A DNA stretch of 64,000 bases from an uncultured Lachnospiraceae bacterium (GTDB lineage: Bacteria > Bacillota > Clostridia > Lachnospirales > Lachnospiraceae). The position numbers and the translations under genes are program-made. Positions 11,517-41,529 of this stretch are shown here, piece by piece. The first letter of the stretch is position 1. Each line of letters opens with the position of its first letter. The DNA lies in NCBI GenBank assembly GCA_947245585.1, contig CAMXPV010000003.1:52950-116949 (forward strand). The letters run 5' to 3'. Under the pieces are notes generated by a model. That model ran no database searches. It was not told where the DNA came from and was given only the letters and a program-made list of their open reading frames with translations.

Positions 11517-11547
11517 ATTATACCCCCCCCCGGTAAAAAAATGGCAA
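11517..11547 (-). promoter_or_regulatory. Candidate promoter with G9 spacer tract (paralog A)
   Basis: Minus strand TTGCCA-N19-TATAAT; spacer is TTTTTTTACCGGGGGGGGG (G9 at 11523-11531), directly abutting -10. Confidence 0.6.
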
Positions 11548-40423: not shown

Positions 40424-41272
40424 TTACTGCGCGATAAACGCAACGACACCGTTCCCTTTCATATTCAGGGTTACATGGTCTGCTCTTACTTCCGCTACCT
40501 CTACGTCAACCCATGTGCCTGCATTGTACTGCAGGGCAATGATGCTCTCTTCCCCTGTGATGCCGGGTGTATAGAAGTTGATCGTCGCCTCCACTGCGGG
40601 ATAACTCACTTCAACCACATTCAAAACCGTTCCCTCCTGCTCGATGCGGACGGAATCCACATAAGCGCGGTTGGTCACCTTGCTGATAGACGCAGACATA
40701 TTGGTCACCTGTCCGTCTACAACAAGATTACCGCCCTGTCCTACGGTCATCGCATTCTCAATGCCGGGAGTGCTCACAACTGCATTATTGTAAAACTCGC
40801 CTGCGGACATATTTTTCTCTGCTGCTCTGTACATATCGCCTACATCGGCAAAACCTTCATCCATCGCTGCGCCCACCAGACGGACTGCCTCTGCGCTCGC
40901 CTGCTCCTGTATCAGGCGCTCTTTCGTAGCTTCTGCTTCCGCTCTTGCCTCTGCCTCACGCTCTGCGGCGGATTTGGAGTCGGAACTACTGGAACCAGAA
41001 TCGGAACTGGAGCCGCCATAGGAATCTGTAAGCACCCACTTTCCTCCTTTATACACATACATCTTAGATTCATTCGAACTCCACCAAAAATCACCCTCCG
41101 TCATGCCGCTAGTAGGTGCGTCCGCTTGATTAAACTGCTGTGGTCCATTTGATTCCGTCTGTTGTCCTCCGTTACCACCTGTTTCTTCTTCATCCGCCGC
41201 AAACACCGACATCGCCGATACCATCAAGCCCACCGCCAACATAAACGCCAACCATTTTCTTACTGTTCTCAT
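40424..41272 (-). CDS. Secreted coiled-coil protein, paralog B
   Basis: Signal peptide MRTVRKWLAFMLAVGLMVSAMSVFAADEE; Ser-rich linker; Ala/Glu-rich helix; C-terminal domain shared with 10601-11470. Confidence 0.88.
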   Translation of the reverse strand: MRTVRKWLAFMLAVGLMVSAMSVFAADEEETGGNGGQQTESNGPQQFNQADAPTSGMTEGDFWWSSNESKMYVYKGGKWVLTDSYGGSSSDSGSSSSDSKSAAEREAEARAEAEATKERLIQEQASAEAVRLVGAAMDEGFADVGDMYRAAEKNMSAGEFYNNAVVSTPGIENAMTVGQGGNLVVDGQVTNMSASISKVTNRAYVDSVRIEQEGTVLNVVEVSYPAVEATINFYTPGITGEESIIALQYNAGTWVDVEVAEVRADHVTLNMKGNGVVAFIAQ

Positions 41273-41377: not shown

Positions 41378-41406
41378 ATTATACAGTAGACATAACGCTT
41401 TTGCAA
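41378..41406 (-). promoter_or_regulatory. Canonical promoter of paralog B
   Basis: Minus strand TTGCAA-N17-TATAAT. Confidence 0.7.
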
Positions 41407-41440
41407 ACGTTTTTTAGATTATTTGTAAACTACAATATGT

Positions 41441-41468
41441 TGTATACCCCCCCCCGGAAATTTTTCAA
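41441..41468 (-). promoter_or_regulatory. Candidate upstream promoter with G9 spacer tract (paralog B)
   Basis: Minus strand TTGAAA-N16-TATACA; spacer ends CCGGGGGGGGG (G9 at 41447-41455); 15-mer CCGGGGGGGGGTATA identical to paralog A upstream. Confidence 0.5.
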
Positions 41469-41529
41469 CATCTTGTGGTTTTCCCATTTTCTGGAGTTTT
41501 GAGAGCCCTTTTTTTGCTCACAAAAGCAG

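Follow-up and report, generated by a model that had tools for sequence, protein, structure and literature searches.

Poly-G tracts fused to the -10 hexamer of Lachnospiraceae promoters: candidates for slippage-tunable expression of secreted proteins

RESULTS

Two G9 tracts lie upstream of paralogous genes in different contexts

We analyzed a 64,000-nucleotide stretch of DNA (the window) from the 3.69-Mb genome of an uncultured Lachnospiraceae bacterium. Two of its genes, at loci A and B, encode the predicted secreted proteins P0002 and P0001, respectively (Table 1), which are 48% identical in alignment and matched no Pfam domain. Neither Rfam elements nor tRNAs were found in the window. A pattern search recovered the 15-mer CCGGGGGGGGGTATA twice in the window, at 11519 to 11533 and 41443 to 41457, on the minus strand in both cases. 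These are the two copies claimed by the first-pass annotation, and dinucleotide-preserving shuffles gave no match to the 15-mer. The accompanying claim that the window has no further C/G run of at least nine also holds, even when the threshold is lowered to at least seven: the two G9 tracts are the sole runs of G or C of that length.

Table 1. Features of loci A and B (window coordinates)
Feature	Position	Strand	Basis or remark
Locus A gene, 289-aa predicted secreted protein P0002	10601..11470	-	Translation
Locus A promoter, TTGCCA (11542-11547)-N19 ending CC-G9-TATAAT (11517-11522)	11517..11547	-	Design common to L195 and L172
Locus A G9 tract, 3' part of the promoter spacer	11523..11531	-	Read from the letters
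Locus B gene, 282-aa predicted secreted protein P0001	40424..41272	-	Translation
Locus B downstream sigma-A-like promoter, TTGCAA (41401-41406)-N17-TATAAT (41378-41383)	41378..41406	-	Conserved
Locus B inverted repeat, downstream arm CAACATATTGTAGTT	41428..41442	-	Kept in L047, L048, and L049
Locus B candidate promoter of the first-pass annotation, TTGAAA (41463-41468)-N16-TATACA (41441-41446)	41441..41468	-	Letters; absent in L047 to L049
Locus B inverted-repeat loop, 23 nt, holding G9	41443..41465	-	21 nt in three relatives
Locus B G9 tract, within the 15-mer 41443-41457	41447..41455	-	Letters and pattern search
Locus B inverted repeat, upstream arm AACCACAAGATGTTG	41466..41480	-	Kept in L047, L048, and L049

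The contexts of the two tracts differ. The promoter of locus A lies 46 nt upstream of its gene and carries the G9 within its spacer, the homopolymer thus sitting between -35 and -10 as in porA-type promoters. It is nearly unchanged, G9 included, in genome G848 (L195, CTTGCCATTTTTTTACC-G9-TATAAT), and a promoter close to it, again with G9, is found in genome G798 (L172), giving exactly nine Gs in three species. The proteins encoded downstream of this promoter in G848 and G798 differ in their N-terminal halves.

The letters of locus B are as the first-pass annotation read them: TTGAAA-N16-TATACA precedes the ATG at 41272, and downstream of this hexamer pair stands another promoter, TTGCAA-N17-TATAAT. 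Here the G9 lies in the loop of an inverted repeat. Three orthologs (L047, L048, and L049) keep the inverted repeat around a loop of 21 nt without a homopolymer, as well as the downstream promoter in the form TTGAAA-N17-TATAAT; at the position of the locus B tract they have neither a G tract nor a TATACA-like -10 hexamer. According to a pattern search, the arm pair of this dyad occurs a single time in the genome.

Poly-G runs are overrepresented in the source genome

Pattern searches, from which all genome-wide tract counts derive, found 18 runs of eight or more Gs in the source genome (4, 7, 4, 2, and 1 of lengths 8, 9, 10, 11, and 12, respectively; nine is the commonest length), against about 0.7 expected by extrapolation from shorter runs. 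For this extrapolation, counting G6 windows gave estimates of 212 runs of six and 12 runs of seven, their split being approximate as it was estimated among the first 100 matches listed. Promoter-like spacer contexts were seen at locus A and upstream of a GntR-type regulator and a chemotaxis receptor. Other tracts stand just before the start codons of genes for a flagellin, a BlaI-type repressor, and a cytidylyltransferase; the remaining contexts are coding sequence and one terminator-like site.

Several of these sites merit a description of their own. In the promoter of the GntR-type regulator (L003, G000:C7), a G9-TATAAT follows a TGTACTA/TAGTACA-like repeat, and other regulators may therefore meet such tracts. 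A G10 directly precedes the start codon of the flagellin gene (L038, G000:C56), and a G12 and a G11 (L029 and L034, both on G000:C30) lie beside cytidylyltransferase and methyltransferase genes; these three tracts are reminiscent of the contingency loci for surface glycans in Campylobacter. A GNAT gene (L004, G000:C8) and a methyltransferase gene (L022, G000:C26) each contain a coding tract that is out of frame with the remaining gene, as is a poly-G in a small secreted-protein-like gene of another species (L201, G845:C34). These could reflect real frame switching or assembly error. L034 was discarded as a third case in the genome, its tract ending a carrier-protein-like gene and the methyltransferase having its own start. 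Three of the 18 tracts are at most ~320 bases from a contig end (G000:C51:45, G000:C68:243, and G000:C62:13905; 0.29 expected), and the contig of one homolog (L046/L162) starts 15 bases ahead of the gene. Assemblies may break at poly-G tracts, and tract counts are therefore probably too low.

Tracts are enriched upstream of the P0001/P0002 family

The 77 congeneric genomes provided 76 homologs of P0001/P0002 with readable upstream DNA. A promoter tract of G8 to G11 precedes nine of them (~0.08 expected), a count that leaves out the coding tract of L201. The enrichment upstream of this family, which the first-pass annotation had proposed to look for, is thus borne out. The nine tract-bearing homologs come from six genomes, several being copies within one genome, and the other 67 have no tract. 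Apart from the locus A-type promoters, tract lengths of 8, 9, 10, or 11 Gs were found; one genome (G833) has three tandem homolog genes with 11, 10, and 11 Gs. Matching promoter-like sites in different species (L175 and L177) have 11 and 13 Gs. Homologs of P0001/P0002 are rare in a sample of the wider Lachnospiraceae. A motif confined to this protein family was rejected, since the class is wider and includes other secreted proteins, the chemotaxis receptor, and the GntR regulator.

A class of G8-TATAAT promoters occurs across the Lachnospiraceae

A set of 397 Lachnospiraceae genomes from 334 genera contained 29 G8-TATAAT sites, compared with 1 site for the reversed pattern and 2 for the C-tract control, C8-TATAAT. 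Together with the shuffles, these controls rule out a chance repeat. A -35 hexamer within one mismatch of TTGACA was present at 14 to 20 nt in 21 of the 29 sites (shuffled mean, 1.3). The spacing of these 21 promoters is shifted: 15 have 18 to 20 nt, with a mode of 18 to 19, and just 3 have the usual optimum of 17, which is the spacing of 82 of 150 ordinary TTGACA/TATAAT promoters of Lachnospiraceae. Downstream genes start with a signal-peptide-like sequence in 16 of 25 cases, versus 7 of 25 for control promoters (Fisher test; P = 0.02), as called by a simple rule rather than a dedicated predictor. When the sample covered the whole phylum, the tract was directly adjacent to TATAAT at 13 sites, compared with 18 sites distributed among eight other gaps.

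The tracts of the family set are 8 to 13 Gs long, with a peak at 9 (13/29), and CC precedes the tract in 10 of the 29 sites. Nine being the commonest length and CC a frequent neighbor, it is unsurprising that two members of one class share CC-G9-TATA, and the exact match between the two 15-mers is less remarkable than it first seemed. The feature that exceeds chance is the poly-G tract class itself. In another family of the phylum, matching promoter-like sites of two species (L151, G735:C1, and L152, G775:C28) have 18 and 11 Gs; their promoter carries the palindrome GAACATATGTTC, which we take to be LexA-like.

DISCUSSION

Three roles had been put forward for the G tract: an upstream tandem promoter, a regulator-binding site, and a sigma-factor-specific element. 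The last finds no place in our data, because most class members have ordinary TTGACA-like -35 hexamers (21/29) and no special sigma factor is needed; the set having been selected on TATAAT, sigma type is tested independently by the -35 alone. A promoter is the reading that fits locus A and the class as a whole. For locus B itself this role is weak, as its orthologs lack both the tract and the -10 hexamer while the downstream promoter is conserved. A regulator-binding site fits more closely there, as conserved inverted-repeat arms enclose the tract.

The architecture of these promoters, their strand specificity, their enrichment at secreted genes and in the P0001/P0002 family, and their shifted -35/-10 spacing are all observed. 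On balance, we think that they probably reflect sigma-A promoters tunable by slippage, of the porA type at locus A, although our confidence in this is modest. At locus A and in most members, the spacer of an ordinary sigma-A-type promoter has the G8 to G13 as its 3' portion, which abuts the -10 hexamer. DNA polymerase would slip on the tract, leaving the cells of one population with tracts that are one or a few Gs apart. Every G gained or lost would alter the -35/-10 distance and hence the strength of the promoter, and the outcome would be a graded or on/off expression of the surface protein. A G at -14 is a known contact of extended -10 promoters. The tract abuts the -10, and slippage would therefore keep a G at this position and move only the -35. 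The differences in tract length that we observed are between species, with one assembly each; variation within a strain and its consequence for expression are what we infer. The excess of long runs, their peak at 9, and the two out-of-frame coding tracts of the source genome, which could be assembly errors, also speak for slippage. Against it stand the scarcity of the 17-nt optimum (3 of 21 class promoters), the 67 of 76 homologs that have no tract, and the lack of one in the relatives of locus B.

Three species keep the same G9 in the locus A promoter, a genuine sign against slippage that favors another reading, in which the tract is a fixed structural spacer, a stiff and more A-like DNA that aligns -35 and -10 at 18 to 20 bp and sets promoter strength or the response to supercoiling with no switch. 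The class mode of 18 to 19, unlike 17, and the use of G but not C are also in its favor. Family-set tracts of 8 to 13 Gs, spacings of 14 to 20, and matching sites at least 2 Gs apart between species do not suit a fixed element, and we consider this reading unlikely.

The tracts might also have no function, runs growing by neutral slippage wherever they are tolerated, as they would be in spacers. This agrees with the tracts that the genome carries in coding sequence and elsewhere, with the presence of a tract at locus B and its absence from the orthologs, and with the majority of P0001/P0002 homologs that have none. Yet neutral growth fails to predict the excess of G over C (29 versus 2), the contact of the tract with the -10, or the enrichment at secreted genes and in the P0001/P0002 family, which makes it a rather improbable account of the class.

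Two operator readings have very little probability in our view. In one, the arms of locus B would be NrdR-type boxes, tract length would set their spacing, and a longer tract would release repression. The arms are conserved, with loops of 21 nt in relatives versus 23 in locus B, and if they are centered on their ATAT-like core, the centers are 31 and 33 bp apart, which would leave 15 and 17 bp between boxes of 16 bp. The arms appear to resemble the NrdR consensus at ~10 to 12 of 16 positions; counting against this reading, a link to ribonucleotide reductase is absent and the genome has the dyad pattern only once. NrdR represses at box separations of 15 to 17 bp and is released at 18 to 24 bp (PMC12051234). 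By this rule the tract length at locus B would matter, which we offer as a lead and not as a result. In the other, a CsoR-like regulator would read TACC...GGTA around the G run, as suggested by locus A (TACC-G9-TATA, in which TACC faces GGTA) and by the TACC common to two homolog promoters (L195 and L172), but we rejected this operator because its dyad is not conserved across homolog promoters and family sites: TACC precedes just 3 of the 29 family tracts and is missing from the remaining homolog promoters, a fixed operator is hard to reconcile with variable tract length, and the downstream genes encode secreted proteins rather than metal efflux.

Slippage-tunable promoters have precedents in other bacteria. 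In Neisseria meningitidis, porA (and also fetA and opc) has a homopolymer in the -35/-10 spacer (PMC3639595, PMC2791445). The length of the porA poly-G is proven to control expression, the surface protein being two-fold lower with 10G and thirteen-fold lower with 9G than with 11G (PMC3639595). The tracts of locus A and its class are similar in length to those of porA (9 to 11 Gs), lie likewise between -35 and -10, and precede genes for secreted or surface proteins. Unlike in porA, the Lachnospiraceae tract abuts the -10 and the spacing has its mode at 18 to 19; moreover, Neisseria belongs to another phylum, and it is there that variation within a strain is proven, along with the effect that this has on expression.

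Locus B has the layout of another Neisseria gene, nadA, in which NadR operators lie on either side of a repeat tract located upstream of the core promoter (PMC2791445). The slippage-prone tract of locus B likewise lies between two arms, here conserved ones, with a normal promoter further downstream. The tract of nadA is made of TAAA repeats and its repressor is known, whereas that of locus B is a mononucleotide run missing in the relatives. The tract of locus B is species-specific, and its likeness to nadA is one of layout only. If it acts at all, it would shift the spacing between two regulator half-sites, as in nadA; such a spacing effect is possible, and a functionless tract is equally so. 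A broader scenario, in which secreted proteins across the family are switched by slippage in sigma-A promoters with a -10-fused tract, and in which the tract of locus B entered an operator loop and tunes a second geometry, is one that we put forward tentatively and regard as doubtful.

In gut Clostridia, DNA inversion accounts for most of the phase variation described. The invertible promoters of Clostridioides difficile likewise give phase-variable expression, by site-specific inversion rather than homopolymer slippage (PMC11868660). G-tract slippage is proven in the pilus genes of Bifidobacterium breve, whose authors mention further G-tracts in promoter spacers (PMC9187656). This species is also a Gram-positive gut commensal with G10 to G11 tracts, but it belongs to the Actinomycetota and switches frame inside genes, whereas the main class in Lachnospiraceae lies in promoters. 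A topical search of the open-access literature, of a coverage too limited to prove absence, found no poly-G slippage promoters described for Lachnospiraceae. The mechanism class is already known, and the Lachnospiraceae case is probably a new example of it. If true, it would predict which secreted proteins of these abundant commensals vary from cell to cell.
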